Shown: one piece after another, positions 1,087 through 60,308 of the stretch
Layout of the letters: every line of letters begins with the position of its first letter
How positions within the stretch are numbered: the stretch's first letter is position 1
NCBI RefSeq assembly: GCF_003991425.1
Contig: NZ_CP034346.1
Coordinates: 5,455,001 to 5,519,000, forward strand
DNA: 64,000 bases
Direction: 5' to 3'
Source of the DNA: Paenibacillus lutimineralis
GTDB lineage: Bacteria > Bacillota > Bacilli > Paenibacillales > Paenibacillaceae
Notes under the pieces: generated by a model
What the model was told of the DNA's origin: nothing
What the model saw: the letters and a program-made list of their open reading frames with translations, nothing else
The model's database searches: none
Position numbers and translations under genes: made by a program

Positions 1087-1420
1087 AGGTTGTTCAAAAA
1101 GTTCGCTTTTGATAAGAAAACCGATCGAAGTCATTCAGGGATGAGCGACCGCGATCCTAAGGTAGGTTTTCTTGCGATATAGAATTTCATCAGCTACGCT
1201 GATAACTTATAAATTCTATATCTAACACGAAGTAACATTGAATGCTTATTCGACATCGAATCTTGAATTCAGCCGGTTCTAAGCATATGCTTACGAAGTC
1301 ATGTTTCCTACGGAAACATCTCAGGTGCTCGCGTACACAAAACGTACGCTCCGCTCATCAAACCCTAGCTTCATCCAATCTTCTCGATGGTGAAAACGAC
1401 ACTTTTTGAACACGCACTTA
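1087..1420 (+). repeat. palindromic interspersed element, long copy A
   Basis: Fills most of the 482-bp gap between the divergent ygxA and ygzB. It begins with GTTCAAAAAGT and ends with ACTTTTTGAAC followed by ACGCACTTA. Inside are hairpin modules: AAGAAAACC pairing with GGTTTTCTT, GATATAGAATTT pairing with AAATTCTATATC, AAGCATATGCTT, and ATGTTTCC pairing with GGAAACAT. The central ATTCGACATCGAAT core is shared with the copies near 4.4, 6.7, 22.4, 41.8 and 60.1 kb. No ORF of useful size is present. Confidence 0.85.
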
Positions 1421-1490
1421 TGGGGATTGCGTCATTTAGTTCTTTCATTTATATAGTTCAAATTTAAAATAAGAATAGAGGTTGCTGCTA

Positions 1491-1868
1491 ATGTTCTTCA
1501 AATCCAGCAAAATCAACGAATTCCGTTTATGGGGCCTACTTCTGACAATGTTCGGAATGGGACTTATGGTGCTAGGTACAGCCGGCATCGTCTTCTGGGG
1601 CCAATCCGGCAAGATTATCGCCGGTATAGGCCTTGCCATCGGACTGATCGCTATGCTAGCCAGTCTGGCGGTTTATTTCTGGGCCGGAATGCTCTCGACC
1701 TCCGCAGTACAGTTAGAATGCCCCGAATGCCATAAATTAACGAAAATGCTTGGCAAGACTGACCGCTGCATGTTCTGTAAGACCATTCTGACTCGCGATC
1801 CTGAGCAGGCGACAATTACTGCTGAAGAACTGGAACAGCAAGCTGCAGCATCCACCATGAATGAATAG
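1491..1868 (+). CDS. ygzB: UPF0295 family membrane protein YgzB
   Basis: A 125-residue protein of the YgzB/UPF0295 family, function unknown. Two hydrophobic segments occupy roughly residues 15-40 and 45-70. A C-terminal cytosolic zinc-ribbon-like part follows with CPECHK and CMFCK motifs. The ATG at 1491 is chosen over an in-frame TTG at 1482 because an AGAGGT motif lies at proper distance. It is one of the few plus-strand genes and has long repeat A directly upstream. A bidirectional hairpin terminator follows. The C-terminal tail is acidic and alanine-rich. Confidence 0.75.
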   Translation: MFFKSSKINEFRLWGLLLTMFGMGLMVLGTAGIVFWGQSGKIIAGIGLAIGLIAMLASLAVYFWAGMLSTSAVQLECPECHKLTKMLGKTDRCMFCKTILTRDPEQATITAEELEQQAAASTMNE

Positions 1869-1902
1869 ACGCCAACGAGAACATACATAACATTCGCATA
1901 AA

Positions 1903-1948
1903 AAAAGGACCATCATTTTCGCGCTCAAGCGGAATAGATGGTCCTTTT
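1903..1948. terminator. bidirectional terminator between ygzB and the GH18 gene
   Basis: AAAAGGACCATC pairs with GATGGTCCTTTT around a 22-bp loop region. A and T runs on the two flanks suit both convergent genes. Confidence 0.75.
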
Positions 1949-2006
1949 GCATTCTTTTAGCTTATTTATAACAGGTTTGCAGACCTCGGATTTGCCTTGG
2001 TCCAGA

Positions 2007-3749
2007 TTATTTCGCCTGCGTTACTTCTTTCAAGGTCTCCCAGGCCTTGTCCGAAGCAAAGCTGCGATTCCAGGAAGCGACTCCCCCCAGCTTGAGAGAC
2101 TTGATGAGATCCACCCTCGCCTTCAATGATACTTCATCCTCAAGCCATATCCGATAGCGTACCTGATCTTCCGTATACTCTACATAGTTCTGTCCTGCTT
2201 CCTCCGAGAATACAGGCTTCAGCTTCTTCTCCTCAATGATCTTCTGAGCCTTGGTCATACCAATCGCCTTCGACTTCACTTCTACCTTGCCATCCTTCTC
2301 TGTCTCCGACCATACCCGAGTGTACAGCGGTACAGCAAGGATCATCTTCTCAGGCGGTACATTATCCTCATCGAGAATCCGACTGGCCGATGATGCTGCC
2401 CACGGTAGTGAAGCTACGGAGCCTGCTACAGGGCTCGCCGCCCAATGCTCGTCGTATGCCATCAGAATTAGATAGTCTACAATCTCACCAAGCGATTTGC
2501 GATCCAGGAACGCGGACCACATCTCACTGTTCGATTTTGGCGTTACATCGATCGAGACGACAAGACCATATTCTTGGGCAAGTGGGCGCAGCTCCCTCAT
2601 AAATTGAGTCAGGTTGTCTCCATCCTTAGTATACACATTCTCATAATCGATATTTATTCCATCAAGATCATACAATTTTGCATAATGCAGCATTTGCAGA
2701 ATCGTCGTCATCCGATTTTCAAAGCTGGCTAACGCTCCCGAGGTCAAATCTGGATCAAAGCTATTATTGAACAAGCCCCATACTTGCATGCCTCGCCCAT
2801 GAGCCCATTTTACATAGTTGATATCCGCTTTGCTCTTCACGTTGCCTTCGTCATCGGTCAACGAGAACCAGGTTGGGCTGACAACGTTTACTCCAGGCAG
2901 TTCTCCGATATTCGCTGTCTTAGGTGCAACCTCATAGACTGCTTCCCAGGTCAGGTTCACCGCTTTGGACTTCCATTTCTGCTTGGCAGGCGACAATTCC
3001 TCCACTGCCTTCGGGATATCGATCGACTCACCAATCTCTACATGCTTGGCCTGCAAATAACCCGTGTATCCATTATCCAATTGCACATGGTACCAGTCGT
3101 CCACATCGCCCAATATACGAAACTTCGTACCTGGTTTCACGTCTGCCACGATTGGTTTATGAATGTTCGGCTCTACCCGCAGAGGGTATTTCAAGCTTTC
3201 CTTCTTCTTGCCAGGTTCTGACACCTCACCCTTCTGAACGTTCTCCCCAGCCGTATACAGCAGAACTGCTCCGGAGGCCATATCTTCGTGAATCTCTATG
3301 CCATATAGTTCCTTAAGCAAATGAACAGGTAAATACAGCACTCCATCCTTCTCTTCCGGTGAGAACAGCAGCTTCATCGGTTTATTGTTAATCTTCGCTG
3401 TCTTCTCATCTGTCTTCAGAAAGACCAGCTTCTTAGGCGTCGTCAAAATAACTAACTTGTTCTCTTCTTCATAGCGGATATGCGGGTCGATCACTTCTTG
3501 TATTACGGGTAAAGGAAGCTTGAGCGAATCCTCCGAGCCTAGAGCAGAATAATCCATAATAGCTCCATCATAGAAGATAGGTTTATCAAATTTCCCCTTC
3601 CAATCCGGGTCGACATGCTGACGATTCGGTAGAAATTGCGAAGAGACTAAATAACCGCCAATAATAATGAGAATGAGTCCAAATAGCCATTTAACGCCAC
3701 GTCTCTTTCGTCTTCTGCTTCCGTAATATGCGCTTCTTGTGCTCTTCAA
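2007..3749 (-). CDS. membrane-anchored glycoside hydrolase family 18 protein with SH3 and stalk domains
   Basis: A 580-residue enzyme likely to act on peptidoglycan or other amino-sugar polymers outside the membrane. In order: a basic N-terminus, one membrane anchor (residues about 18-40), a copper-amine-oxidase-N-like stalk region (about 85-170), a bacterial SH3 domain (about 186-245) and a GH18 barrel (about 250-575). The GH18 signature DGINIDYEN near residue 365 supplies the catalytic glutamate. The start is TTG at 3749, eight bases after a perfect GGAGGT; no better ATG is nearby. Family relatives include spore-cortex and germination hydrolases (YaaH/YdhD type). Substrate is inference. Confidence 0.8.
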   Translation of the reverse strand: MKSTRSAYYGSRRRKRRGVKWLFGLILIIIGGYLVSSQFLPNRQHVDPDWKGKFDKPIFYDGAIMDYSALGSEDSLKLPLPVIQEVIDPHIRYEEENKLVILTTPKKLVFLKTDEKTAKINNKPMKLLFSPEEKDGVLYLPVHLLKELYGIEIHEDMASGAVLLYTAGENVQKGEVSEPGKKKESLKYPLRVEPNIHKPIVADVKPGTKFRILGDVDDWYHVQLDNGYTGYLQAKHVEIGESIDIPKAVEELSPAKQKWKSKAVNLTWEAVYEVAPKTANIGELPGVNVVSPTWFSLTDDEGNVKSKADINYVKWAHGRGMQVWGLFNNSFDPDLTSGALASFENRMTTILQMLHYAKLYDLDGINIDYENVYTKDGDNLTQFMRELRPLAQEYGLVVSIDVTPKSNSEMWSAFLDRKSLGEIVDYLILMAYDEHWAASPVAGSVASLPWAASSASRILDEDNVPPEKMILAVPLYTRVWSETEKDGKVEVKSKAIGMTKAQKIIEEKKLKPVFSEEAGQNYVEYTEDQVRYRIWLEDEVSLKARVDLIKSLKLGGVASWNRSFASDKAWETLKEVTQAK

Positions 3750-3775
3750 ATAATTGTACCTCCGTTACGTTAATA

Positions 3776-3810
3776 GTCCGTGTTCAAAAGTACGGTTTGC
3801 AGCCCCGAAC
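3776..3810 (-). repeat. end fragment of the palindromic element
   Basis: GTGTTCAAAAGTACGG followed by TTGCAGCCCCGA closely matches one end of the interspersed element (GTGTTCAAAAAGTACGG, then TTTTCAGCACCGA). No core or opposite end is present here. Confidence 0.6.
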
Positions 3811-3819
3811 CTCTAATAA

Positions 3820-3859
3820 AATAAAAACGTGAAGGATTCCCGAAGGTACCCTGCACGTT
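3820..3859 (-). terminator. terminator of perR
   Basis: On the minus strand an AACGTG arm pairs with CACGTT around a loop containing an AGG/CCT extension. TTATTTTATT follows. It lies 20 bp after the perR stop. Confidence 0.6.
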
Positions 3860-3878
3860 CTCTCAAACATCAGGAAAA

Positions 3879-4307
3879 TCAATGATTACGACGGCAATCC
3901 TTGCACACGCCGTATAGCTCCAATCGGTGCCCATGTACTTCAAAACCGGTTACCTCTTCGGCCTTACGTTCTACCTCGTCCAGCGAAGGGTAAGTGAAAT
4001 CTTCGATTTTTCCGCATTTTTCACAAATAATATGATAATGATTCGAAACATCGGCATCGAAACGGCTTGAGCTATCGCCATACGTCAGCTCTCTGACCAA
4101 GCCAGCCTCAATGAACATTTTTAGGTTGTTATATACCGTAGCCACGCTCATATTCGGAAAACGCGGCTCCAGTGCTCGGTAAATCTCATCCGCGGTCGGA
4201 TGTCCCATCGTATCCATAAGATAGCTAAGGATGGCATGACGTTGCGGCGTTATGCGGACACCATTCATTTTCAGTTGTTCTAACGCATGTTGAACGCGCG
4301 AAGCCAT
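3879..4307 (-). CDS. perR: peroxide-responsive repressor PerR, Fur family
   Basis: DNA-binding metal-dependent repressor that senses hydrogen peroxide by metal-catalysed histidine oxidation and controls peroxide defence and iron efflux genes. The 142-residue form starting at ATG 4307 has H36, D84, H90, H92 and D103, each one position before the B. subtilis regulatory ligands. The zinc cysteines C95, C98, C135 and C138 are likewise shifted by one. The aspartate at the D104-equivalent site supports PerR rather than Fur. A longer GTG start at 4316 is rejected because that GTG is part of the AGGCGGTG ribosome binding site. A strong promoter lies at 4358-4387. Confidence 0.93.
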
Positions 4308-4357
4308 TATGTCCACCGCCTTTTTGATAGTGCAGAAGAACTAACCCCTGCAATGTT

Positions 4358-4387
4358 ATTGTACGGTTAGGTTAAAACGTTTGTCAA
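4358..4387 (-). promoter_or_regulatory. predicted sigma-A promoter of perR
   Basis: TTGACA (4382-4387) and TACAAT (4358-4363) on the minus strand, spacer 18 bp. Palindromic element copy B begins about 9 bp further upstream. I see no convincing PerR box around it. Confidence 0.65.
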
Positions 4388-4395
4388 CGCAACTT

Positions 4396-4580
4396 TAAAT
4401 GTAGTTCAAAAAGTCAGCTTTTGATCACGAAGTAACACTGAGAGCTTATTCGACATCGAATCTTGAATTCACCCGGGCCTTCCGGTGCTCACGTAAAAAC
4501 TACGTACGCTCCGCTCCTCACTCCCTAGCTTCATCCAACCTTCTCGGTGCTGAAAACCGGCCTTTTTGAACACTCACTTT
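4396..4580 (+). repeat. palindromic interspersed element, short copy B
   Basis: Runs from GTTCAAAAAGTC, CTTTTGATCACGAAG, the ATTCGACATCGAAT core and the ACGTACGCTCCGCTCCTCA stretch to GCTGAAAACCGG and CTTTTTGAAC. It is about 185 bp and lacks the two extra hairpin modules found in copies A, G and K. Both flanks read TTTAAATG. Confidence 0.85.
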
Positions 4581-4613
4581 AAATGTAGCTCAAAAAGTAG
4601 ACTTTTGATGATT
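4581..4613 (+). repeat. second left-end fragment of the palindromic element
   Basis: AAATGTAGCTCAAAAAGTAG then ACTTTTGATGATT repeats the left end of copy B directly after it. It stops 5 bp before the stop codon of the DUF4097 gene. It looks like a truncated tandem copy. Confidence 0.65.
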
Positions 4614-4618
4614 CCGCG

Positions 4619-6439
4619 TTAACGTCTATTCACAATTAAGTCACTATTGCCCTCGACTTGAATTTCATGATCGCCATTCCCGGAAATGCCAGAAATTTCT
4701 TTACCATTTATGGTAAACGGAAGGTTGCTCGTAATATTCCCATATCCACTCGAGCCCATGATCATATAATCACCGATTTCCGGTAGCGCCAGGTTGATTT
4801 CTCCTACAGCGCTGTATACATTCCAATCTCCGCCGACAACTGACGAGGATACTTGAATCCTGCCATTAAGCGATTCCGCCTTAAGCTCCTCTGGAACAGC
4901 GTCAACCTGGATATTTCCGTTCTTGGTCGTAACGTTGATGTTCCCCTGCGAGTTCACCAGCGAAATATTGCCGACCAGTGTGGATAGCGCCGCATCTCCG
5001 GCAATCCCCTTAGCCTTGATATTACCGCCCTGCGTATCCACTTGCGCGTTGCCGAATATCCGATACAGCTCTGCGTTACCGTTCAAGGTTCTTGCCGAGA
5101 CCTCACCGACGATATCCCAGAACTTGAAGTTACCACCTCCGGTCTGCAGCTTGAATTGATTCATCGCCTGCAGGCCAGTTAAGGTAATAGATCCGCTAGT
5201 CGTACTAACATCGAGATCAAGGAAGCGGTTCTGCGGAACAATCAGCGTTATATTCACACGAGGGTGGCGTCTGCCGCTCTCGCCATAGGTATGATCCTTC
5301 ACCGAAAGATCTAATATCTTGCCTTCACCCACAACAACAGAAGTTTCCTCGGCAATGTCCCTCGCCTCTTCCTCGGGAACTTGGTCGATCCATACCGTGG
5401 ATTTAATGATTACCTCATTAATCTCCGCGCTCTTGACATCGATATCACCATTTATCCCGTTCACTACAATCTTTCCGGTGTCCAGATCAATTGGAATCTC
5501 TACAGCTGACTTATCCGTCCTGTACCCTTCTTCCCCGCTGAACTCAGCGCCTGCTGAAGCAAGATCAAGGCTGACCCGGTTCCATAAATGCATATAATGA
5601 TCCTGCTGTGTAATGGCGAATACCGAAACGCCGATGCATAACGACAAGAGCAGCCCTTTGAAGTCGATACGCAGTCTACGGATCGGTCTGCATACCTTCC
5701 TCCGGTTCCAGACCATCGCTAGCATAAGCTCCAATCCACCAAGTACCAGCAACAGAGGCCACCATTTAAGCAATAAGAGCATATAATCCTGTCCGCTTCT
5801 AACATCGATCCACATGAGTATAGCAACTGCAATCAGTAATACTGAAGCCGTAAGCCGACCTGCCCGTAATATATGTCGCCTGCCCTCCATGACAATCCAG
5901 ATGAGTCCCGTGAGCATCATAGCTACTGATACACCGTAGCTGCCATAATTCTGAATTAGTCCTTCCAGCCAGGCTGGCTTCATGCGCAATATAAAAGCGA
6001 TAATCCCACCACTGATTAGAATGATCCCGGTTAATGCACCTACCTCCGAACCCAATGGGTCCACTGCTTCAACCTGCTCCGCTGTTCCACTCTCTTCGCC
6101 CCGTTTCAAGCTGGCGTTGACAGCATCTGTTGTCTGAAGAACATCATAGATGCTATAGAAATATACAACAGTCACTAGCAAGCCAAGTACGAGTAACAAC
6201 GGTACATTGATTCTCATATGAGCCGAAGAGAAGTACACAAGCAGCGCCAAATCGATAAGAAAAACATCTATAAAAAGACTGCCTTTTATGAATTTTTGCA
6301 AATATAAATGACCAAATCCCGGGAAAAGCGTAGAGAGCAGACAAGCAATGAATTTCCTTTTGCGGCGCCTTGGTTTGTAGCCAGCCTTATGCTTCTGCTT
6401 AAGCTCTTCCGGGCTTATCAACGAATTTGAGGGTTCCAT
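4619..6439 (-). CDS. membrane protein with LiaI/LiaF-like helices and DUF4097 beta-repeat domain
   Basis: A 606-residue protein with a basic N-terminus and membrane helices in two clusters (about residues 28-90 and 130-270). A long C-terminal beta-strand repeat domain of the DUF4097 type follows (about 310-600), with recurring G-x-I/V-x-V-x-x-x-G-x-I turns. The membrane part resembles LiaI/LiaF-like modules; the beta part resembles putative adhesin domains. This architecture is common in Firmicute envelope-stress loci, but no LiaRS-type two-component genes are adjacent. The ATG at 6439 follows GGGAGGAGATGG. Role in envelope sensing is inference. Confidence 0.7.
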   Translation of the reverse strand: MEPSNSLISPEELKQKHKAGYKPRRRKRKFIACLLSTLFPGFGHLYLQKFIKGSLFIDVFLIDLALLVYFSSAHMRINVPLLLVLGLLVTVVYFYSIYDVLQTTDAVNASLKRGEESGTAEQVEAVDPLGSEVGALTGIILISGGIIAFILRMKPAWLEGLIQNYGSYGVSVAMMLTGLIWIVMEGRRHILRAGRLTASVLLIAVAILMWIDVRSGQDYMLLLLKWWPLLLVLGGLELMLAMVWNRRKVCRPIRRLRIDFKGLLLSLCIGVSVFAITQQDHYMHLWNRVSLDLASAGAEFSGEEGYRTDKSAVEIPIDLDTGKIVVNGINGDIDVKSAEINEVIIKSTVWIDQVPEEEARDIAEETSVVVGEGKILDLSVKDHTYGESGRRHPRVNITLIVPQNRFLDLDVSTTSGSITLTGLQAMNQFKLQTGGGNFKFWDIVGEVSARTLNGNAELYRIFGNAQVDTQGGNIKAKGIAGDAALSTLVGNISLVNSQGNINVTTKNGNIQVDAVPEELKAESLNGRIQVSSSVVGGDWNVYSAVGEINLALPEIGDYMIMGSSGYGNITSNLPFTINGKEISGISGNGDHEIQVEGNSDLIVNRR

Positions 6440-6533
6440 TTACACCATCTCCTCCCCTCTTGACTTATTGTAACCGAAAATAGGCCTCTTTGTAATTTAT
6501 AATAATTTCTCTTTTCAAGAAACGCTCTCCTAA

Positions 6534-6584
6534 TTTAAAAAATAGCACTCCCTATCCGCCTGACGGCAGATAAGTGTGCTATTT
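6534..6584 (-). terminator. terminator-like hairpin upstream of the DUF4097 gene
   Basis: AATAGCAC pairs with GTGCTATT with additional GATAG/TTATC and GCC/GGC pairing. The minus strand then runs into TTTTTTAAATT. It would end transcription coming from the GNAT gene through repeat C. Confidence 0.65.
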
Positions 6585-6610
6585 GCGGACTCTTTGAACT
6601 ACGTCTTTAA

Positions 6611-6795
6611 ATGCATGTTCAAAAAGTACGGTTTTCAGCACCGAGAAGGTTGAATGAAGCTAGGGACTGAGGAGCGGAGCGTACGTAGTTTGTACGTGAG
6701 CACCGTAAGGCCCGGCTGAATTCAAGATTCGATGTCGAATATGCTCTCAGTGTTACTTCGTGATCAAAAGCGGACTTTTTGAACTACATCTATAA
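6611..6795 (-). repeat. palindromic interspersed element, short copy C
   Basis: Inverse orientation to copy B and about 180 bp. On the plus strand it reads GTTCAAAAAGTACGG, TTTTCAGCACCGAGAAGG, GCGTACGTAG, the ATTCGATGTCGAAT core, TGATCAAAAGCGG and ACTTTTTGAAC. Its right edge is 13 bp from the stop of the GNAT gene. Flanks are TTTAAATG and CATCTATAAA. Confidence 0.85.
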
Positions 6796-6807
6796 AATCA
6801 TCTGTAA

Positions 6808-7287
6808 CTAGCGATGGAGATGAAATAGCGTCAGATCTACACCCGCCGTCGACCTTACTGTCTCTCCCGGCATGAAGCCAAATTTCTGGTACAAGGATAC
6901 GGCCGGAGCATTAAGCGTTCCCGCCGTAACGGAGAAATGCTGGATATTATCGTAATGATCGAGAAGATAACTAACCAAGGCAGTTCCGATGCCTTCACGC
7001 ATATGTTCTGGATGTACCATTAACCGGGTAAGGGACAGATGGACAGATGATTCTGCCCGGATTGAGATCACTCCCAGCAGCTCCCCGCCTTCCTCATTAT
7101 GTCCCGGCTCGTCCGATAAGTACCCATAGAAATCTTCCTCACTGCATCTGATTGAATCGAACGTATCACTCAGAGGCGGATATGAAGCAAGTCCTATCGC
7201 CAATGCCTCCAAACGGTAAGCCGTATGCTGTAGGCTCCATATCTGCTCCACTACGTCCGGGTCCTGAAGAGATAACAATCTGATCAC
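6808..7287 (-). CDS. GNAT family N-acetyltransferase
   Basis: Small acetyl-CoA-dependent acyltransferase; substrate unknown. The protein carries the GNAT core: a beta strand with LTRLMVHPEHMREGIGTAL (acetyl-CoA pyrophosphate-binding loop, about residues 88-106) and a later motif with NAPAVSLYQKFGF (about 128-140). The likely start is GTG at 7287, six bases after AAAGGATGG. An ATG 12 bp further upstream has no ribosome binding site of its own. It lies directly downstream of gatB, 63 bp away, so it may be read as the last gene of that operon. Palindromic element C follows it. Confidence 0.8.
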   Translation of the reverse strand: MIRLLSLQDPDVVEQIWSLQHTAYRLEALAIGLASYPPLSDTFDSIRCSEEDFYGYLSDEPGHNEEGGELLGVISIRAESSVHLSLTRLMVHPEHMREGIGTALVSYLLDHYDNIQHFSVTAGTLNAPAVSLYQKFGFMPGETVRSTAGVDLTLFHLHR

Positions 7288-7350
7288 ACGGCTTCCCATC
7301 CTTTTCGTAGCCCAAATCTGATAATTTTGATAGAGTGTTAAGCCAAGTCT

Positions 7351-8790: not shown

Positions 8791-8884
8791 ATCGATCCTC
8801 CTGCTAACTTTAATACTGCCTCATCGCAAGATGCGAAGGGCTGTCCCATCAACTTAAGAGCGTCTTAACAGACACCGCCCATTA

Positions 8885-8940
8885 TAGTACTTGTTTAAAA
8901 AGTCGGACTTTCAGCACCGGCTTTTTAAACTACCTCTTAT
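8885..8940 (-). repeat. palindromic element, minimal copy D
   Basis: About 55 bp: GTTTAAAAAGTCGGAC, then TTTCAGCACCGG, then CTTTTTAAAC. Both inverted ends remain but almost the whole core is gone. The right edge overlaps the gatA stop codon: TAA is followed at once by GAGGTAGTTTAAAAAG on the minus strand. Confidence 0.75.
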
Positions 8941-10391: not shown

Positions 10392-10454
10392 TCCATCTTC
10401 CTCCTTCCAAAATTTTCAGGACTAATACTTTTATTACGAGTTGAACTACCTCTT

Positions 10455-11311: not shown

Positions 11312-11332
11312 ATTTTTGAACACGCAATATAA
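11312..11332 (+). repeat. end fragment of the palindromic element in a 5' leader
   Basis: TTTTTGAACACGCAATATAA matches the right end and flank of the element (CTTTTTGAACACGCACTTATA). The rest is missing. Confidence 0.45.
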
Positions 11333-15784: not shown

Positions 15785-15854
15785 TGATCTGCCTCCTTTT
15801 ACCTCTCGAACGATCCGTTCAATGTATTTCAGAAGCTAAAAAAAACCGCTATAG

Positions 15855-15916
15855 ATGTTGTTCAAAAAGTCCGCTTGTAATCATGAAGTAAAACCGACCT
15901 TTTTGAACACGCATAA
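15855..15916 (+). repeat. palindromic element, minimal copy F
   Basis: GTTCAAAAAGTCCGCTTG, then TAATCATGAAGTAAAACCG, then CTTTTTGAACACGCATA. Only about 60 bp: left end joined to right end with nearly all of the core deleted. Confidence 0.8.
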
Positions 15917-15917
15917 A

Positions 15918-20667: not shown

Positions 20668-20732
20668 CCTTATTTCCCCCCTCTCCATAGGTAAAATCAA
20701 TCCATTAACAAATCTCGCTGGACAACAAACAC

Positions 20733-20763
20733 AAAAAAAGGCCAACACATTTAGTGTTGACCT
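20733..20763 (-). terminator. hairpin terminator in the leader of the ligase gene, first of a duplicated pair
   Basis: AGGCCAACAC pairs with GTGTTGACCT. On the minus strand seven T follow. It lies only 72 bp upstream of the ligase start. It is duplicated, same orientation, at 21025-21053. Confidence 0.7.
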
Positions 20764-20989: not shown

Positions 20990-21024
20990 CGTCCAAAGGA
21001 CTGACGCAAGTATTCTCAATACTT

Positions 21025-21053
21025 AAAAAGGCCAACACATACAGTGTTGACCT
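21025..21053 (-). terminator. hairpin terminator of the methyltransferase gene, second of the duplicated pair
   Basis: AGGCCAACAC and GTGTTGACCT arms with five T on the minus strand, 58 bp past the stop of the METTL25-like gene. Stem and orientation are the same as at 20733-20763. Confidence 0.75.
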
Positions 21054-22324: not shown

Positions 22325-22731
22325 AAGAGGTTGTTCAAAAAGTCCGCTTTTGATAAGAAAACAAACCGAAGCCAATTCAAAGATGAGCGTTCGGCAATAC
22401 AAAGGTAGGTTTATTTGCGATATAGATTTCATCAACTCCGTTGATAACGTATAAATTCTATATCTAACACGAAGTAAATCAGGAAGCTACCCGGCATCGA
22501 ATCTTGAATTCACCTGGGCCTAAGCAGATGCTTACGTAGTTATGTTTCCTCCAGAAACATCTATTGTGCTCACGTACCCACTACAAGTATATGCTTCCGA
22601 AGTCGTTTTCTACGAAAACGCGTAGCTACGCTCCTTAGACCCTAGCTTCATCCAACTGAAGCATTTTGAAAAAACGCACATCGGTAGCATAAGCTTCGGT
22701 GCAGAAAACTGCACTTTTTGAACACGCACTT
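22325..22731 (+). repeat. palindromic interspersed element, longest copy G
   Basis: About 407 bp. It has the left end GTTCAAAAAGTCCGC, a decayed AAGAAAAC/GGTTTA module, the GATATAGATTT ... AAATTCTATATC module and the ATTCGA-type core. Two related inserts follow: AAGCAGATGCTT with ATGTTTCC/AGAAACAT, and AAGTATATGCTT with GTTTTC/GAAAAC. The right end is CACTTTTTGAACACGC. It abuts the stop codon of the DUF6483 gene; the TTAA next to the end supplies that TAA. Confidence 0.85.
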
Positions 22732-29048: not shown

Positions 29049-29077
29049 TAGTGCACGTTCAAAAACTACCTCTAATA
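29049..29077. repeat. collapsed palindromic element H (ends fused)
   Basis: GTGCACGTTCAAAAACTACC then TCTAATATC looks like the right-end flank GTGCGTGTTCAAAAA joined to the left-end flank CTACCTCTTATA, without any core. It resembles an excision or deletion scar. Confidence 0.5.
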
Positions 29078-41642: not shown

Positions 41643-41757
41643 AGTGGTCGTTCAAAAAGTTCTACCTCTGAGATCCGATCTAAGTCGTTTTGAAAAAACC
41701 ACAGCAGAATCCGTAAACTTTGGTGCTATGAGCACTCCCTTTTTTAACTCGCACTTA
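41643..41757. repeat. degenerate palindromic element copy I
   Basis: Ends GTTCAAAAAGTTC and TTTTTTAACTCGCACTTATGG resemble the element termini, but the interior matches poorly (only TCCGTAAACTTTGGTGC-type remnants). It lies next to copy J. Confidence 0.55.
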
Positions 41758-41946
41758 TGGTGCGTGTTTAAAAGTACGGTTTTCAGCACCGAGAAGGTTG
41801 GATGAAGCTAGGGTCTGAGGAGCGCAGCGTACGTAGTGGGTACGTGAGCACCGGAAGGCCCGGCTAAATTCAAGATTCGATGCCGAATAGGCTCTCAGTG
41901 TTACTTCGTGATCAAAAGCGGACTTTTTGAACAACCTCTTATAGCG
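41758..41946 (-). repeat. palindromic interspersed element, short copy J
   Basis: About 189 bp, same orientation as copy C. GTGCGTGTTTAAAAGTACGG, TTTTCAGCACCGAGAAGG, GATGAAGCTAGGG, AGCGTACGTAGTGGGTACG, a core with GATTCGATGCCGAAT, TGATCAAAAGCGG and ACTTTTTGAACAACCTCTTA. Confidence 0.85.
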
Positions 41947-48436: not shown

Positions 48437-48572
48437 CGACAGTTAATTTTTAGTGGTTGCCCTACCAGATGGCATAAGATATACTTGCTAATGTTGTAAG
48501 GCAACTTGTTCAAATTCCCCTATAATTGAATATTTTAGCCTCATCATTGCGGGTGAGGTAGAGGTCGCAACT

Positions 48573-48737
48573 GTGAAGAGTATACCGGAGGAGGCGTATG
48601 AAGCCGCCTATGAATCCGGAGGAAAGGCACCGTTGCCGAAGCGTTCAATCAGCTTCAATCCGATTGAGCCGCTGGGGCTGTCGTCGAAAGAGACAGAACT
48701 GTCACAATTTCTTATGCCATATGGGAAATTGTGTTGA
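48573..48737 (+). CDS. possible 54-residue ORF or gene remnant
   Basis: Not recognised. The frame beginning at GTG 48573 has coding-like codon use (EEAYEAAYESGGKAPLPKRS, NPIEPLGLSSKETELSQF). It stays open upstream of the GTG, so it may be the tail of a decayed gene. A second frame starting at ATG 48598 with a good GGAGG site gives a 50-codon, Arg/Cys-rich product that looks less natural. A terminator follows. This is the only content in the 510-bp gap. Confidence 0.3.
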   Translation: MKSIPEEAYEAAYESGGKAPLPKRSISFNPIEPLGLSSKETELSQFLMPYGKLC

Positions 48738-48793
48738 GCTATCTTCATGAAGGAATGGTGCGGAGATTTCGTGTATATATTACATGTCCATAA

Positions 48794-51748: not shown

Positions 51749-51758
51749 TTGATATAAT
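51749..51758 (+). promoter_or_regulatory. extended -10 promoter of the 65-residue membrane ORF
   Basis: TTTTGATATAAT gives TGA-TATAAT (TATAAT at 51753-51758) with no good -35, 72 bp upstream of the start codon. Confidence 0.45.
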
Positions 51759-51829
51759 AAAAAAGTTAATAATTGTGATATATGTCACTGCAAATCATGC
51801 ACGTAGTAGAATGGGGAGACACTCTAACT

Positions 51830-52027: not shown

Positions 52028-52173
52028 TGCCCATATGGAGGATGTCAGTTCACAATTATGCTGAACGGCATCTTCTTTTATTTCAAGATATACGTAATAA
52101 AAGAGGGTTCCTGCTCAGAAAATAGCAAAATTTGTGTGAAAGAAAAACCCTATAAATGGACTCGAATTTTGTG

Positions 52174-52209
52174 TAAAAAAGAGGACGGATCAATGACGAT
52201 CCGTCCTCT
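52174..52209. terminator. terminator of trxB
   Basis: AGAGGACGGATC pairs with GATCCGTCCTCT around AATGAC, a 12-bp perfect stem with a T-run on the minus strand. Confidence 0.85.
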
Positions 52210-52243
52210 CTATTTTCACCAGTCCATGACCGGCTCAGAACCA

Positions 52244-53194: not shown

Positions 53195-53361
53195 AAATAA
53201 TTCCTCCTTGAACACGAGATACACACAGCTCATCTAAACTACTATATATTCATCATTATCTTATTAAAGGTTAGGGAAAGTCAATGTTCGTAACAGGAAG
53301 GTTCAGTGAAGTTCAAATGAAGAAATGATGAATAGCACTTATTCCCTCTTCCTGCTTAATT

Positions 53362-55296
53362 TTATCGCAGCAGACGCAATCCATTCAGAATAACCAAGAT
53401 CGTACTTCCCTCATGACCAACGACGCCCAGCGGAAGAGCGATGCCCTGCACAAAATTGCTAACCACTAATGTAAGAATCACACATGCTGCAAACACAAGG
53501 TTTTGTCTAACAATCCGTTTGGTGCGACGTGCCAGGGAGAATGTATCGGCAATCCGCTCAAGATTATCATTCATCAGCACAACGTCTGCGATTTCCAGCG
53601 CTGCACCGCTGCCTCCGCCGCCCATCGCGATCCCAACCGTAGCTGCAGCCAGAGCAGGAGCATCATTGACGCCATCGCCAACCATAACCACATGGCCATA
53701 TTTCTTTCTAAGCTCAGAGACATGGGAAACCTTATCTTGGGGCAAAAGATCACCAAAGACATAATCAACTCCGGCCTCATTGGCAATTGCCTGAGCGGTG
53801 GCACTCCGGTCTCCGGTTAACATCGCGGTGGCAATACCCAGTTCCCGCAGCTTACGAATTGTCTCCTTCGCTTGTGGACGGATATTATCACGCAGGGCAA
53901 TCAGTGCTACGTATTCGCCATCGCATTGAACCATTGATACTGTATTACCCGTTTCTGTTAAAGCTTGCATCCGATTACGCAGCTCAGTTGGCAAACCATC
54001 CGCATCTGCCTCGGCCTTGCCAATCCGCCATTTACGGCCTTCAACCAGAGCCTCGATCCCCCAGCCAGGCAAGTCCTGAAGCTCGTCTGCAGCTCTAAGC
54101 GTAATCCCTTCATCCATAGCCTTGCGTACGATAGCACGGGCAAGCGGATGCTGTGACAAACTCTCTGCCGCCGCACATGCTGCCAACACGGTCAATCGGT
54201 CATATCCCTCCATAACGACGAGGTCCGTGACCTCTGGCGATCCTGAGGTCAATGTCCCTGTCTTATCAAAAGCAACGACCTTCGCTTCACTAAGCAAATC
54301 CATATGCGCGGCCCCCTTGAACAGGACGCCCTTCCTGGCGCTCTTAGACATCGCCGATAATGTGGCGGGCATCACAGAAGCGACGACCGCACATGGGGAA
54401 GCGACGACCAGGAATACCATCGCCTTATAGAAGGCTTGAGACCAGGTCAAACCCAGTACCAGCGGGGTAAATAAGATCAACAATATCGTTATAGCAACAA
54501 CCGATTTGGCGTATATTCCTTCCAACTTCTTAATGAAGCGCTGGGAAGCAGGAGTTTCATTCTGGGCCTGTTCCACCATCGCAATAATCTTCGAGAATAA
54601 AGTGCCTTCTGCCGGGCTAGTCACTTCAACGTACAACGCGCCCTGACCGTTTAGAGTACCCGCATACACTTCATCGCCAGTACTTTTATCAACAGGAATC
54701 GACTCTCCTGTAATTGTTGACTGGTTCACGGAGGATCCGCCGCTCTGTACAACACCATCTGCCGGAATAACCTCTCCTGGCTTCACTAGCAACAGATCAC
54801 CAACGATCAGTTCTCCAACGGCTACCATGGAAATGCCATCTCCATCAACCTTCAGCGCTGTCTCCGGTCTCAAGGCGATCAATGCCGAGATATCCTTCAT
54901 GCTGCGCTCGCTCGCGAATGACTCTAACGCACCGCTAAGTGCAAAGATGAAGATGAGCATCGCCCCTTCGTTCCAATAGCCGATGGAAGCTGCTCCAAGT
55001 GCAGCCGCGATCATCAGCAGATTCACGTCAAGGTCGCGCTCCTTAACAAGCGTCTCAATTCCTTCCCGTGCTTTAATATAGCCTCCAACAGCATATGCAG
55101 CAATGTATACGATGATCGACAGCACATGTGACCAGGTTCCAATTCCCCAGGCCAATAACATAAGCGCCCCACTGCTGATGGCAAATACCATCTCCTTGTG
55201 TTTAAGCAAATGAATCAAATTCATACGCGGCTTTTGGTGTGGAGTCGGCTGATTAACAGAACTAACGGCTGAGTTGGATTTTTGGATGGCTTGCAT
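53362..55296 (-). CDS. P1B-type metal-transporting ATPase, PfeT/ZosA-like
   Basis: A 644-residue metal efflux pump with no N-terminal metal-binding domain, as in PfeT (637 residues in B. subtilis). Motifs: TITGES (about 193), FLVVASPCAVVAS metal site in helix 6 (about 300), DKTGT phosphorylation (about 346), HPLARAI, GDGVNDAPAL (about 543). The SPCA motif and lack of HMA fit the Fe(II)/Co group. In B. subtilis PfeT is PerR-controlled, and perR lies in this window. The leader has a 16-bp perfect hairpin between two Fur-like AATTGAGAA motifs. Actual metal is inference. Confidence 0.87.
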   Translation of the reverse strand: MQAIQKSNSAVSSVNQPTPHQKPRMNLIHLLKHKEMVFAISSGALMLLAWGIGTWSHVLSIIVYIAAYAVGGYIKAREGIETLVKERDLDVNLLMIAAALGAASIGYWNEGAMLIFIFALSGALESFASERSMKDISALIALRPETALKVDGDGISMVAVGELIVGDLLLVKPGEVIPADGVVQSGGSSVNQSTITGESIPVDKSTGDEVYAGTLNGQGALYVEVTSPAEGTLFSKIIAMVEQAQNETPASQRFIKKLEGIYAKSVVAITILLILFTPLVLGLTWSQAFYKAMVFLVVASPCAVVASVMPATLSAMSKSARKGVLFKGAAHMDLLSEAKVVAFDKTGTLTSGSPEVTDLVVMEGYDRLTVLAACAAAESLSQHPLARAIVRKAMDEGITLRAADELQDLPGWGIEALVEGRKWRIGKAEADADGLPTELRNRMQALTETGNTVSMVQCDGEYVALIALRDNIRPQAKETIRKLRELGIATAMLTGDRSATAQAIANEAGVDYVFGDLLPQDKVSHVSELRKKYGHVVMVGDGVNDAPALAAATVGIAMGGGGSGAALEIADVVLMNDNLERIADTFSLARRTKRIVRQNLVFAACVILTLVVSNFVQGIALPLGVVGHEGSTILVILNGLRLLR

Positions 55297-55316
55297 ATTT
55301 ATCTCCTCCTTAAATA

Positions 55317-55345
55317 ATGAGCTAATTGAGAATGAATACTATTGT
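55317..55345. promoter_or_regulatory. Fur/PerR-like half-palindrome near the ATPase start
   Basis: AATTGAGAATGAATACTA resembles the TGATAATNATTATCA family of Fur boxes at about 10 of 14 positions. The TAATTGAGAA part is repeated exactly beyond the leader hairpin. Confidence 0.35.
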
Positions 55346-55363
55346 TAATACCCTAAAAATGGC

Positions 55364-55398
55364 ACATGCTGCTCCGGGAAGATCCCGGAGCAGCATGT
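55364..55398 (-). terminator. perfect 16-bp hairpin in the PfeT-like leader
   Basis: ACATGCTGCTCCGGGA and its exact complement flank a 3-base loop. Four bases later on the minus strand comes TTTTT. It can act as an attenuator or terminator before the ATPase gene. The cupin gene upstream already has its own terminator. Confidence 0.55.
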
Positions 55399-55435
55399 AA
55401 TTGAGAACGATAATCATTTTTGCAATTGTACAATT
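55398..55435. promoter_or_regulatory. Fur-like box and AATTGTACAATT palindrome in the PfeT-like control region
   Basis: TAATTGAGAACGATAATCA matches the 7-1-7 Fur/PerR/Zur-type box at about 12 of 14 positions. It is followed by a perfect 12-bp palindrome AATTGTACAATT (55424-55435). Candidate operators for the metal-efflux gene. Confidence 0.4.
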
Positions 55436-55554
55436 ATTTTTCCTTAGCGAAACTTTGATTTAATTTTAAACCATTCTCGATAATTTGTAAATACAGTTTT
55501 GGTATATACTCCATTGGGTTTAAAGGATCACCACCATTGATGACCGTTGGAAAA

Positions 55555-55604
55555 TAAAATGGAGCTACCCCTAGTAGTAAATACTACTTATGGGATAGCT
55601 CCAT
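55555..55604 (-). terminator. terminator of the cupin gene
   Basis: ATGGAGCTA/TAGCTCCAT arms with inner CCC/GGG and AGTAG/CTACT pairing. TTTTATTTT follows on the minus strand. Confidence 0.75.
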
Positions 55605-55652
55605 CCGGGAAACCCGTCTTAGCATACAAACCGATATATCTAGACCGATACA

Positions 55653-55994
55653 TTATACTTCTTGAGCGTATCTTTCATCCGGAATCGAACTAAGTAAGAC
55701 ATAGAGACTTGTAGGCTCAGTTCCCGTGCAACTGAAAGAAAAGACTTCATCCCCCTCGCAGCGGACCACATCGCCTTCTGAGACAGCTGTATCCTGTCCG
55801 TCTGTCGTGATAACCCCCTCTCCTTGTAGAACCGTCAAATACACAATCGCTCCTGGATGACGATGGGCAGGGAGCTGCTGTCCGGGCATAAAGTTCAGCA
55901 CAAATATAAGGCTCTGCTGATCCTTGAATAAGATCCTCTTCGTAAATTTCTCATTGCTATATTCGATACGTTCTTTCAACGCGATTTTCTCCAT
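55653..55994 (-). CDS. cupin domain protein
   Basis: A 113-residue single-cupin barrel. Motif 1 has histidines in PAHRHPGAIVYLTVLQGEG (about 42-60), motif 2 is GDVVRCEGDEVFSFS (about 74-88) and has lost the usual histidine. It could be a small metal-binding sensor-like or enzyme-like cupin; role unknown. It has its own terminator and sits between the ATPase and metY. Confidence 0.78.
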   Translation of the reverse strand: MEKIALKERIEYSNEKFTKRILFKDQQSLIFVLNFMPGQQLPAHRHPGAIVYLTVLQGEGVITTDGQDTAVSEGDVVRCEGDEVFSFSCTGTEPTSLYVLLSSIPDERYAQEV

Positions 55995-56140
55995 ATTGCT
56001 TCCACTCCTATCCAGCTATTTGTAGGATGTCTCCTCCTCTCTATCGTAGGCCGCAAACAAAGCAAAGATTGTGATTCCATGCACATCTTTTATGACATCT
56101 ATGAAAACGGGCATGTTTGCAATGCATTCGGGGCATAAGC

Positions 56141-56173
56141 AAAGCCGCTACCGGAAAATCCGATAGCGGCTTT
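56141..56173 (-). terminator. terminator of metY
   Basis: AAAGCCGCTA pairs with TAGCGGCTTT around a 13-base loop region; AAAG and TTTATTTTAT flanks. Confidence 0.8.
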
Positions 56174-56198
56174 ATTTTATTAAATAGGATATTTAAGA

Positions 56199-57506
<1,308 letters not shown>

Positions 57507-57610
57507 TTAAATACGAGATTTAAAAACAATCGCATAAAATGTTTTTCATATTCTCTCACATAATTTCTCATTTGAAAACTATAAATCCGATAATTTTTAT
57601 ATGAATTATT

Positions 57611-57638
57611 AAAAAAGGTCGCCGAAGCTCCGGCAACC
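57611..57638 (-). terminator. terminator of the ECF-sigma/ABC operon
   Basis: GGTTGCCGGAG pairs with CTTCGGCGACC and six T follow on the minus strand. Confidence 0.8.
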
Positions 57639-57673
57639 CTTGGTTATAATCAGAAATTATCAATATTCGCTTC

Positions 57674-58540
57674 TTACTTGCTCCGCGTGAATTTGCGAAT
57701 GAAATAAGCATCCTCCATCGTAGGGGAGACTTCATTCCAGCCGTGGAACGGCGCTTCTGCAGCTACAACCCGCAAGACCATCATTCCATTATCCACCTCG
57801 CGAAACTCTATGATGCTGCGATCTGACGTAAAATATAACTGGAACTGATCCTTTGTCAATCGGCCCTGCCATACTTTATACGGCAAATCGGATAACCAGC
57901 TCTCTTGATTCCCGTAAAATCCAGCCTGACCGTGATCCAGCCAGAGCAGTCGATCGCTGGCTGCCTCCCATTCACCAAGCTCATGAACCGCAGCTATAAT
58001 TGTTCGTCCCTCCGCGTATTTATTCAAATAAGCGATCACCAGCTTGCGCTCCGCAGAATCCATTCCGTTCAGCGGTTCATCCAGGAAGAGGAATTGCGGT
58101 GAGGCTAGTAAAGACTGGGCGATGGCAATTCGCCGCTGTATCCCTGCGGACAAACGCTTAATGCGTGTATTCCGGTAAACCGACAGACGAAAATCTTCAA
58201 TCAGGGCTTCGATCCGTTCCAGGTGGTACATCCCTTTGAGCTCTCCTAAATACTTCAGCAGCTTATACACCGTCATATCTTCATACAATTCAATATCGGA
58301 AGGGACATATCCAATTTGACTGCGCAGCAGAGGCAGAGCCTCCTGGGCGGAGCGTCCATCGTATTGGATGCTTCCACCGCGAGGCAGCTGTACCGTTGCG
58401 AGCAGTTCCAGCAGCGTTGATTTACCTGCTCCATTCGCGCCAACGAGTAAAGTAATGCCCCGGGCGATCCGTAGTTCATGGATGCGAAGGGAAAATTCCC
58501 CTACCTTCTGCTCCAACCTCTCAATCGAAATCATACGCAC
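57674..58540 (-). CDS. ABC transporter ATP-binding protein of the ECF-sigma operon
   Basis: A 288-residue ATPase. Walker A GANGAGKSTLLELL (about 34-47), signature LSAGIQRRIAIAQSLL (about 128-143; S-A-G instead of S-G-G), Walker B FLFLDEPLNGMDSAE (about 148-162). The C-terminal half is the extra domain typical of export-type ATPases. It overlaps the upstream membrane gene (coupled). The start is GTG 58540 or ATG 58534. No separate permease follows, so the membrane protein upstream may be its partner. Confidence 0.82.
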   Translation of the reverse strand: MRMISIERLEQKVGEFSLRIHELRIARGITLLVGANGAGKSTLLELLATVQLPRGGSIQYDGRSAQEALPLLRSQIGYVPSDIELYEDMTVYKLLKYLGELKGMYHLERIEALIEDFRLSVYRNTRIKRLSAGIQRRIAIAQSLLASPQFLFLDEPLNGMDSAERKLVIAYLNKYAEGRTIIAAVHELGEWEAASDRLLWLDHGQAGFYGNQESWLSDLPYKVWQGRLTKDQFQLYFTSDRSIIEFREVDNGMMVLRVVAAEAPFHGWNEVSPTMEDAYFIRKFTRSK

Positions 58541-59384
58541 CGTTGCTCCCGCCCGCTCCCGAGCGGATAATTCTACTACGATAATAGGAACGAACCAGCA
58601 ATACCAATCCGATCAGCAGCATGATTCCGTCCAGCGCAGATCCGTGCTCTACCTTGAACTGATGGAAACGGAAATACTCATTGAATATGAACCACATCAC
58701 GTACACGGTGCTGGCACAAATGATCCCCAGCCTCATTCCTCTGCGAAATAACACATACATGGCAATTCCTCCGATCAGCAGTGAAATTCCAAGCCACTGC
58801 AGTAGAAATGGAATGAACGGGATATGATATTCCCCGGCTACAGTAACCCGGATCCCAACAATCGCCGAACTGATCAGGGCCCAGCTTAGGATGAGTCCCA
58901 TGATCATTAGCATCCTGCTATACAGTACCAATGCCGGTGGATATGGAGTTATGCTCTCAACAGCCCGCATCCCAGGGTTCCATGAACGGTAACTGAACAG
59001 CATGCAGGCAATAAGCAGAAGCGGTGTGATAACAGGAAACAGACTGGTTGGTACAATATCAGCAAGAACGAAGCTGCTCAGAGGGCGTTTGGGATCCACT
59101 AGTAAAATCAGCATCAAAAATACAGCTGATCCTGTTAATACGAGTGTCTTCCAGTTCATAAGGAACTGGCTGCGCAGCAGTCTCCACAAGGAGGGTTCTT
59201 CCACCTGCGTATTAAACTGTAGCGACTTGGCCTGACTAGCTCTTAATACGTCAAACTCCGGTTGAAGCGCAGCAATAAGGGCCCCTGTCTCTGCTGGGGA
59301 TGGCGGCGGCATAACCGCTTGACGAAGCGGTTCGGACAGTTCCTGCTCCAATTGCTTCAATTCCTGGTCAATGGAAGGTCTCAT
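58521..59384 (-). CDS. membrane protein downstream of an ECF sigma factor, possible anti-sigma/permease
   Basis: A 287-residue protein not assigned to a named family. A cytosolic N-terminal part (about 1-78), rich in Glu/Gln, could bind the sigma factor. Six to seven helices (about 80-265) follow, ending in RIIRSGAGG. The arrangement sigma - membrane protein - ABC ATPase suggests an anti-sigma, a permease, or both. ATG after GAGGTG at seven bases; overlaps sigma by 17 bp and the ATPase by 14-20 bp. Confidence 0.6.
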   Translation of the reverse strand: MRPSIDQELKQLEQELSEPLRQAVMPPPSPAETGALIAALQPEFDVLRASQAKSLQFNTQVEEPSLWRLLRSQFLMNWKTLVLTGSAVFLMLILLVDPKRPLSSFVLADIVPTSLFPVITPLLLIACMLFSYRSWNPGMRAVESITPYPPALVLYSRMLMIMGLILSWALISSAIVGIRVTVAGEYHIPFIPFLLQWLGISLLIGGIAMYVLFRRGMRLGIICASTVYVMWFIFNEYFRFHQFKVEHGSALDGIMLLIGLVLLVRSYYRSRIIRSGAGGSNGAYDFD

Positions 59385-59985
59385 GCTGGAGCACCTCTCT
59401 TTCTTGTTTTTTCTCTGGTTCTCTATATTCCGTTAAATGAATCTCTTCTCGCTTGACAAGTACTCGTTTTAATTTGCGCAGTGCGCCGTACAGGTGTGAT
59501 TTGACAATGCTGAGCGGAATGTCCATCAACTCGGATATCTCCTGTAACTTAAGGTCATGAAAGAAACGCATGCGAACAACCTCTTGTTGGATCTCAGGCA
59601 GCCATTCCAGCGATTCGGCAACCGCCTGGGCCCGTTCCTGCTTCTCCAACAGCTCATCAGCACTGGGAGACGGATCGGCCTCCTCCGGCATCTCTAGAGC
59701 AGCTGTCTGCTCAGAGCGGTAAGAAGCAGTACGCCAGTAGTCCCGGCATAAATTAAGGGCTACCTTGTACAGCCAAGGACGTAGCTGTTCCAGCTCGCCA
59801 TATCTCTGTAAATGCCGGATCAAGCGGATAAATGTCTCTTGTACAATGTCTTCCGCCTTGCTTCGATCTTTAAGCTGCTGCGCAACATAGCTAAGCAATG
59901 GTCCATGATAGCGCGTTACCAGTAGCTCGAATGCTTCCTGATCTCCTTCGGCCATTTGCTGTGCCAATTGTTGATCGGATATCAT
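59368..59985 (-). CDS. ECF RNA polymerase sigma factor
   Basis: A 205-residue sigma factor. Sigma-2 (about 15-85) has AEDIVQETFIRLIRHL and LRPWLYKVALNLCRDYWR. Sigma-4 (about 120-175) has FFHDLKLQEISELMDIPLSIVKSH as helix-turn-helix. The C-terminus is a charged tail. The start is ATG 59985, six bases after GAGGGGG. The longer frame to 60126 runs through repeat K and is rejected. Palindromic element K lies directly upstream with only about 25 bp between, so any promoter must be in or before the element. It is distinct from SigY. Confidence 0.87.
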   Translation of the reverse strand: MISDQQLAQQMAEGDQEAFELLVTRYHGPLLSYVAQQLKDRSKAEDIVQETFIRLIRHLQRYGELEQLRPWLYKVALNLCRDYWRTASYRSEQTAALEMPEEADPSPSADELLEKQERAQAVAESLEWLPEIQQEVVRMRFFHDLKLQEISELMDIPLSIVKSHLYGALRKLKRVLVKREEIHLTEYREPEKKQEREVLQHETFH

Positions 59986-60008
59986 TTCTTTCCCCCTCTT
60001 CTTACTAA

Positions 60009-60308
60009 TTCGTATGTGTTCAAAAAGGTCGGTTTTCAGCACCGAGAAGGTTGGATGAAGCGAGGGTCTGAGGAGCGGAACGTACGTAGTGGGTACGTGA
60101 GCACCGGAAGACCCGGCTAAATTCAAGATTCGATGTCGAATATGCTCTCCGTGTTACTTCGTGTTAGATATAGGATTTATAAGTTATCAACGGAGTTGAT
60201 GAAATTCTATATCGCAAGAAAACCTACCTCTGAATCGCGGTCGCTCAGCCTTGAATTTGCCTCGATTGGTTTTCTTATCAAAAGCGGACTTTTTGAACAA
60301 CCTCTATT
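60009..60308 (-). repeat. palindromic interspersed element, long copy K
   Basis: About 300 bp, minus orientation. GTGTTCAAAAAGGTCGG, TTTTCAGCACCGAGAAGG, GCGTACGTAGT, a core with GATTCGATGTCGAAT, the GATATAGGATTT ... AAATTCTATATC module, the AAGAAAACC ... GGTTTTCTT module, AAAAGCGG and ACTTTTTGAACAACCTCTA. It overlaps the TAG stop of the gene upstream and fills the gap to the sigma gene. Confidence 0.88.

Follow-up and report, generated by a model that had tools for sequence, protein, structure and literature searches.

A 64,000-nt stretch of the Paenibacillus lutimineralis genome (6.50 Mb, a single contig; G000:C1:5455001-5519000, hereafter the window) carries six full copies of one repeat family, together with two copies that are deleted internally and several fragments. 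We regard it as probable that these are non-autonomous transposons, like miniature inverted-repeat transposable elements (MITEs), that are moved in trans and whose interior fold is under selection, most consistently with a function as RNA of the R-end strand, this being the strand by which we orient each copy, i.e., the one that folds best. An earlier note on this DNA had described the copies; its observation is confirmed and its interpretation partly supported, the MITE reading being largely right once a 5-bp target is allowed for, while the conservation of the interior together with a co-varying fold is a feature beyond what it had described.

The 42 copies used to build a covariance model (R1) comprised two of the window and 40 taken from 35 further genomes of 10 genera. 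The model matched all six of the copies that the earlier note had called clear (E 9e-8 to 1e-48) as well as both shortened ones. The end fragments had a mixed fate: those at 3776 and 4581 are indeed an R-end and an L-end fragment, that at 29049 reads as a two-ended stub, that at 41643 reads as a degenerate copy, and that at 11312 is too short to judge. The terminal 11-mer GTTCAAAAAGT, allowing one mismatch, occurs 18 times in the window against a shuffle mean of 1.13 (largest 6 in 100 shuffles), and copies lie on both strands, in keeping with the claimed inverted ends and dual orientation. The proposed common core ATTCGACATCGAAT is exact in four of the six full copies, with one mismatch at 41875 and three at 22489; as a loose motif it is hardly enriched (17 against 8.7 expected, reached by 2 of 100 shuffles).

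Extrapolation from 16 copies, six of them full, in 20 evenly spaced 20-kb stretches gives about 260 copies and about 97 full copies in the host genome, over which a first blast pass yielded 337 candidates (40 scored). The family is present in 32 of 40 genomes of the genus and in 128 of 295 sampled Paenibacillaceae genomes (12 of 19 genera); among plasmid and phage records, three Paenibacillus plasmid records carry the element and no phage record does. A class-wide search of the Bacilli with R1, under strict filters and with at most seven candidates scored per genome, showed that 50 of 398 genomes, belonging to 18 of 145 genera, have relatives, so that the family is not limited to the Paenibacillaceae. 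The match in genus g41 of family f23 reaches about E 1e-39, and families f42, f24, f49 and f12 give weaker matches over the full length; copies from other Bacilli families mostly share the GTTCAAAAAG ends, and duplications are perfect (TTATA or TATAA) at four loci from three other families of Bacilli (L255, L256, L270 and L271). The earlier note had allowed that the family might prove to be already named or to lack further copies; instead, further copies abound, no Rfam 15 family exceeded its gathering threshold at the element copies in a scan of the whole window, and literature searches gave no name (titles and abstracts, few subscription journals covered). One copy searched against Rfam at E up to 10 drew only a CRISPR repeat (E 8.5), and no Rfam match covered the element at 16 plus 17 further loci.

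Ends, target duplication and turnover

The ends are imperfect inverted repeats, with TGTTCAAAAAGTCCGnTTTT common to both and imperfect agreement beyond it; they read GAGG(A/T)TGTTCAAAAAG and GTGCGTGTTCAAAAAG. Each element reaches 6 bp past GTTC/GAAC, so bounded as GAGGTtGTTCAAAAAGTCCG...CGGACTTTTTGAACaCGCAC, and outside it lies a 5-bp AT-rich duplication, mostly TWWWA, in place of the TA target that had been suggested. The flanks of 61 own-genome copies co-vary on a single diagonal, three W standing between a mostly conserved T and A. Adding 36 pairs from other genomes (those with clean ends among 57 extracted copies) gave 97 end pairs, some of them neighbours within one array; the duplication was perfect at all five bases in 27 of these, where permutation gave 3.9 on average and never more than 11 in 2000 runs, and none of the other tested offsets scored higher than -11..-7 / +7..+11. 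Among eight window copies it is perfect in two (TTATA at 8.9 kb, TTAAA at 22.3 kb), holds at four of five bases at 6.6, 41.8 and 60.0 kb, and is poorer at 1.1, 4.4 and 15.8 kb. Paired ends lie 49-395 bp apart (pairs beyond 460 bp were excluded from this count), which makes the elements shorter than 500 bp and leaves no room for a transposase; with the inverted ends and the target duplication, this upholds their description as MITE-like and non-autonomous. Head-to-tail tandem copies share the sequence between them, and several genera have arrays that repeat about every 185 bp. One locus of the relative G031 (L165, G031:C10:2716700-2718500) has five head-to-tail copies at a period of 184 bp with almost identical ends, and arrays like it were seen in other genera.

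Orthologous loci, whose alignment the earlier note had proposed, were compared in two relatives, G031, with 91% identity at one locus, and G030, with 81%. Neither has the 60.0-kb copy, and the 22.3-kb copy is missing in G031 and reduced to a stub in G030; at the 4.4-, 6.6- and 41.8-kb sites G031 has end remnants only, while at 8.9 and 10.4 kb it has longer copies where those of the window are deleted. The 1.1-kb copy is common to G031 and truncated in G030.

For gene context, 82 of 105 copies could be placed, the others having fewer than 100 model positions or lacking two neighbours. Five of the 82 fell inside an open reading frame (ORF) by a crude ORF caller, including the window copy at 60018, so that the claim of a purely intergenic location stands broadly but not without exception. 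The R-end strand of 77 copies was sense to both neighbours in 29 cases, antisense to both in 27, divergent in 14 and convergent in 7. A copy lay within 30 nt in 23 of 70 cases for gene 3' ends and in 17 of 84 for gene 5' ends. Orientation should be skewed if the copies regulated genes in cis; no skew is seen.

Interior fold, strand and the window copies

Many interior columns are invariant across the 42 copies of the model. The fold of the R-end strand has 45 pairs, with 97.4% of cells paired, and sliding the partner by one to three columns lowers pairing to 32-48%. Both sides have changed in 21 of the 45 pairs. Doubly changed cells number 98, where shuffles give 23.5 and not one of 500 attains the observed count; these figures are not probabilities, the shuffle control leaving the relatedness of the copies in. 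Supported structure is also present on the opposite strand (41 pairs, 16 of them changed on both sides). The RNAalifold consensus is nevertheless more stable on the R-end strand, at -36.4 kcal/mol (-32.3 after realignment) against -23.3 for the other strand, and the minimum free energy of single copies is lower on the R-end strand in 42 of 42. A facing G and A are conserved in three internal loops, one G-U pair is present in 40 of 42 copies, and another paired position has G-U, A-U and G-C side by side. From these predicted structures the R-end strand is likely, though not proven, to be the functional one, possibly as single-stranded DNA. Selection at the level of DNA only was at first favoured, given equal G-T and A-C on the L-to-R strand, and was demoted because the R-end strand folds better in every copy.

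Copies of the window fall into short forms of about 180 bp and long forms of about 290-400 bp with extra modules; in the latter the model covers only the portion common to the short forms (Table 1).

Table 1. Copies, stubs and fragments of the repeat family in the window, with the extent and E value of R1 matches and the state of the site in relatives
Position	Strand	Feature	Model match and remarks
1086..1417	-	Long-form copy, 332 bp	1205-1411 (-), E 2e-22; common to G031, truncated in G030
3776..3809	+	R-end fragment	Repeat family D7
4398..4577	-	Short-form copy, 180 bp; L-end fragment in tandem at ~4582-4609	4404-4571 (-), E 5e-46
6611..6790	+	Short-form copy, 180 bp; flanks TTTAA / TATAA	6617-6784 (+), E 1e-48; end remnant only in G031
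8887..8936	+	Internally deleted copy, 50 bp; perfect TTATA duplication	8893-8930, E 6e-4; G031 longer at site
10433..10452	.	Stub, outer ends only, interior lost	Long copy in G031 at same place
11313..11326	.	Possible end fragment TTTTTGAACACGCA, too short to judge	
15854..15914	-	Internally deleted copy, 61 bp	15860-15908, E 5e-6
22327..22729	-	Long-form copy, 403 bp, several extra modules; perfect TTAAA duplication	22475-22656 (-), E 9e-8; absent in G031, stub in G030
29051..29073	.	Stub, both outer ends only	Our reading
about 41650-41750		Degenerate copy, in tandem with copy at 41760..41938	Our reading
41760..41938	+	Short-form copy, 179 bp; flanks TTATG / TTATA	41766-41932 (+), E 7e-44; end remnant only in G031
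60012..60304	+	Long-form copy, 293 bp; flanks AATTC / TATTC	60018-60184 (+), E 2e-36; no copy in G031 or G030

In the long forms, that at 22327-22729 among others, the extra hairpin-like modules sit at seemingly fixed points, as if arms were gained or lost whole. Outside this family, the window also has two similar 36-nt repeats (20728-20763 and 21018-21053) around a hairpin-like GGCCAACAC...GTGTTGACC, and a lysine riboswitch (RF00168, 108 bits, 48551-48749, + strand) upstream of a 490-aa ORF.

The central hairpin in distant bacteria

A core pattern taken from the element, GCGGAGCGTA-N4-14-TACGTGAGCA, matched at least 118 stretches in genome contigs, against about 5 expected at equal base frequencies by a hand estimate. 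It also matched in 23 viral contigs, where two loop-permuted versions gave none. The 80 matches with titles include Mesorhizobium, Agrobacterium, Rickettsia, Nitrospirae, Deltaproteobacteria, Acidobacteria, Spirochaeta, Fulvivirga, Listeria, Klebsiella oxytoca, Pseudomonas viridiflava, Paenibacillus and Cohnella. Taken with their flanks, 115 of 136 core matches surpass each of 20 flank shuffles in folding (median z -6.3), the 21 that fail to do so including several Paenibacillus long forms; in a cruder flank test 84 of the 136 passed the 1% control level. From 138 core matches, 28 were set aside as Bacilli-like and 52 chosen as distinct, of which 45 were aligned: AAGGM upstream and ACGMHG downstream, motifs picked after viewing the sequences, occur together in 14 of these 45 diverse non-Bacilli matches, against 0.6 in shuffles (maximum 4 in 300).

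As a check that depends less on the pattern, a Mesorhizobium element that the pattern had found was blasted against plasmids; it hit 35 alphaproteobacterial records, of which ten were fetched; the Pseudomonas viridiflava core region had no match among plasmids. The cores of the ten plasmid copies vary, e.g., CGCAGTGGAC...GTCCATGAG, so that the constant part is (G/C)AG-stem-loop-stem-UGA. R1 was applied to these ten, to 13 pattern-found loci hand-picked for variety from 131 core loci, and to an E. coli ERIC locus: it matched at the element in all ten plasmid copies (E 1e-6 to 2e-3) and in all 13 added loci (E 5e-7 to 0.11). We entertain, tentatively and with more doubt than belief, the idea that the Paenibacillus elements are one branch of bacteria-wide mobile structured RNAs, in which the hairpin would be an ancient recognition element of a conserved host factor and the arms and ends would have been swapped between lineages; on this view ERIC, the palindromes of Alphaproteobacteria and the rRNA-operon cores would share an origin and would not have been invented separately.

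Several contexts of the core were seen in passing. In L261 and L274 (G471, Bacilli family f12) the core hairpin lies at about 1501-1549 in rRNA operons, between 5S and 23S; G471 has 16 core matches of this rRNA-operon type, two of them checked with Rfam, and cores beside 5S rRNA also occur in L265 (G365) and L263 (G524). The hairpin adjoins T-box sequence in L258 (G376), judged by eye from GGTGGTACCGCG, and in L262 (G303), where an Rfam T-box match on the other strand starts at the element edge. Viral contigs L401, L402, L407, L408, L411, L415 and L418 have Alphaproteobacteria-like palindromes with the same core, followed by a common stretch ending CAGCAGCTTGATC, perhaps the end of one gene. 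In L313 (Rickettsia endosymbiont) and other Rickettsia matches the core sits in palindromes with TATACTC...GAGTATA-like ends, which we take to be reminiscent of BOX elements and RPEs.

Explanations and known repeat families

In the explanation that we favour, a trans-acting transposase, most likely of the DDE type, would recognise the inverted ends and insert the element at AT-rich TWWWA-like sites with duplication of 5 bp, and copies would later decay by internal deletion to stubs or come to lie in tandem head-to-tail arrays. The interior would be kept as one long branched hairpin, in which the G.A internal loops are conserved and the (G/C)AG-stem-loop-stem-UGA hairpin forms the centre. The fold would most likely serve the element itself, given that copies are not preferentially oriented with respect to adjacent genes, either as a transcript or hairpin recognised in transposition or as one that makes insertions tolerable. 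The ends, the duplication, the presence and absence of copies between relatives, the stubs and the arrays are observed, and transposition in trans is well supported, although the trans action itself and its DDE chemistry are inferred; the co-variation and the better folding of the R-end strand are likewise observed, and the fold may act as RNA and have a binder.

Several results weigh against this explanation. Perfect duplications are lacking in 70 of the 97 end pairs; the 60.0-kb site is the only one that appears empty in both relatives, and small indels adjoin it; and full own-genome copies reach no more than 96.4% identity among themselves, so that nothing shows present activity or a recent burst. 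Pairs common to both strands have no G-U excess, with 21 G-T against 37 A-C when one helix is excluded and 49 against 39 with it, where 30 lysine riboswitches of the genus, as a control, gave 238 G-U against 22 A-C; the strand argument therefore rests on the pairs selected on the R-end strand. Finally, no partner transposase with matching ends was found, in searches that covered a few transposase families and, for end pairs, 872 kb (13% of the genome).

The earlier note had proposed looking elsewhere for such a transposase. The own genome has no PF01526 (Tn3), one PF01609 (DDE_Tnp_1) and five PF00665 (rve) domains, none with matching ends, these being the families searched; PF01526 is present in 8 of 39 genomes of the genus, in no case within a locus bearing these ends, and four of those loci have canonical-looking GGGG..TAAG ends. 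End pairs 0.5-7 kb apart in the 872 kb gave four candidates, each with at least one end in a copy of ordinary size. Ends of 38-43 nt blasted against plasmids and phages had good matches only in Paenibacillus, the rest being at E of about 1 or more; the one of these inspected, in Radiobacillus, has spoVG and glmU on its two sides and overlaps no transposase, an IS110 gene being 3.8 kb off. A viral contig with both ends proved to hold a long-form copy, an insertion sequence with two identical own-genome copies has different ends, and a pattern for a gene start near an end found only further copies among the matches listed.

The fold could be functionless in an ordinary MITE, its interior conserved by fairly recent spread and its paired changes produced by template switching between the palindrome arms. 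A full-length palindrome invites such arm-to-arm correction, the co-variation is inflated by related sequences, and the strand-common pairs without G-U excess point the same way. Correction should, however, erase conserved mismatched loops, yet these are kept in 42 copies from 10 genera, and the same central loops recur within unrelated arms of other phyla; we thus judge this explanation unlikely. The fold might instead matter as DNA, a single-stranded hairpin of the R-end strand or a cruciform being read by the transposition machinery with no need of RNA. G.A loops can form in DNA too, G-T and A-C are about equal in the symmetric pairs, and no orientation bias to genes is seen; the G-U pair kept in 40 of 42 copies and the position with G-U, A-U and G-C nevertheless suit RNA better, and we hold a purely DNA-level role to be improbable.

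We give little credence to a regulatory RNA or terminator serving the host and kept for its effect on neighbour genes. One short copy does fold strongly in both strands (z -3.9 and -3.0), and insertions are often close to gene ends, but neither the balance of sense and antisense copies nor the presence and absence of copies between close relatives fits such a role. A Tn3-derived miniature element (TIME) would account for a 5-bp AT-rich duplication, and the inner end CACG..AAG is weakly reminiscent of Tn3 ends. Tn3-type TIME ends are, however, 38 bp of the form GGGG...TAAG, whereas those of the Paenibacillus element start GAGG/GTGC; the own genome has no Tn3 transposase and the Tn3 loci of 8 of 39 genomes of the genus lack these ends, which makes this origin very improbable.

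Among known families, the ERIC or IRU elements (enterobacterial repetitive intergenic consensus) are, like ours, intergenic imperfect palindromes present in many genera, with a length of 100-200 bp. By eye, the predicted fold of one E. coli copy has a central hairpin above G.A loops, [GA]GCUUAC-loop-GUAAGU[GA], with AAGGC and ACGCAG on its two sides; to our knowledge such a hairpin has not been given in print as a defining feature of ERIC. The likeness is a resemblance only: homology in sequence or structure to the 127-bp ERIC consensus was rejected, since a search with R1 up to E 1 gave no match in L421, the locus of the E. coli copy. ERIC is described as having 5'-TA-3' at its termini and a 7-bp terminal inverted repeat (PMC2229807). 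According to the same source, RUP and the Correia/NEMIS MITEs are short, with inverted ends, a target duplication, no gene and stem-loop transcripts, and RUP sits at TA with IS630-Spn1 as its proposed partner (PMC2229807); the Paenibacillus element differs in duplicating 5 bp, and a limited search found it no partner.

A counterpart within the Bacilli, compared by description only, is bcr1, which likewise combines high copy number, a pentamer and a MITE-like form. Its literature gives a mean of 39 and up to 130 copies per genome, a repeated pentamer TTTAT, occasional transcription and a predicted conserved structure, and describes it as restricted to the B. cereus group (PMC6542083, PMC3446304, PMC2267715). 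The REP and BIME repeats associated with RAYT are also extragenic palindromes in many copies; REPs measure 20-40 bp and carry a tag, GTAG or CGTC, at one end (PMC3733652), and membership among these RAYT-mobilised repeats was rejected for elements of 180-400 bp with two-sided ends and a duplication. The palindromes of Rhizobiales and Sphingomonadales are long and built around the same central hairpin, as the R1 matches to all ten plasmid copies show, but have other arms and ends; CIR and Bru-RS are the published families to compare with them, by description only.

Small palindromic repeats such as ERIC, bcr1, RUP and RPE have so far been described one genome at a time. The depth of the present family, with a few hundred copies in a single genome and a dozen genera, allows transposition signals at the ends to be separated from a conserved interior fold and makes two questions testable, namely, the identity of the transposase that moves such elements and that of the binder of the hairpin, if there is one; R1 can also be used to annotate many intergenic repeats in Paenibacillus genomes. 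Set beside these known systems, what is new is that the interior is conserved and co-varies, and that its hairpin is met again in bacteria far removed from the host group.

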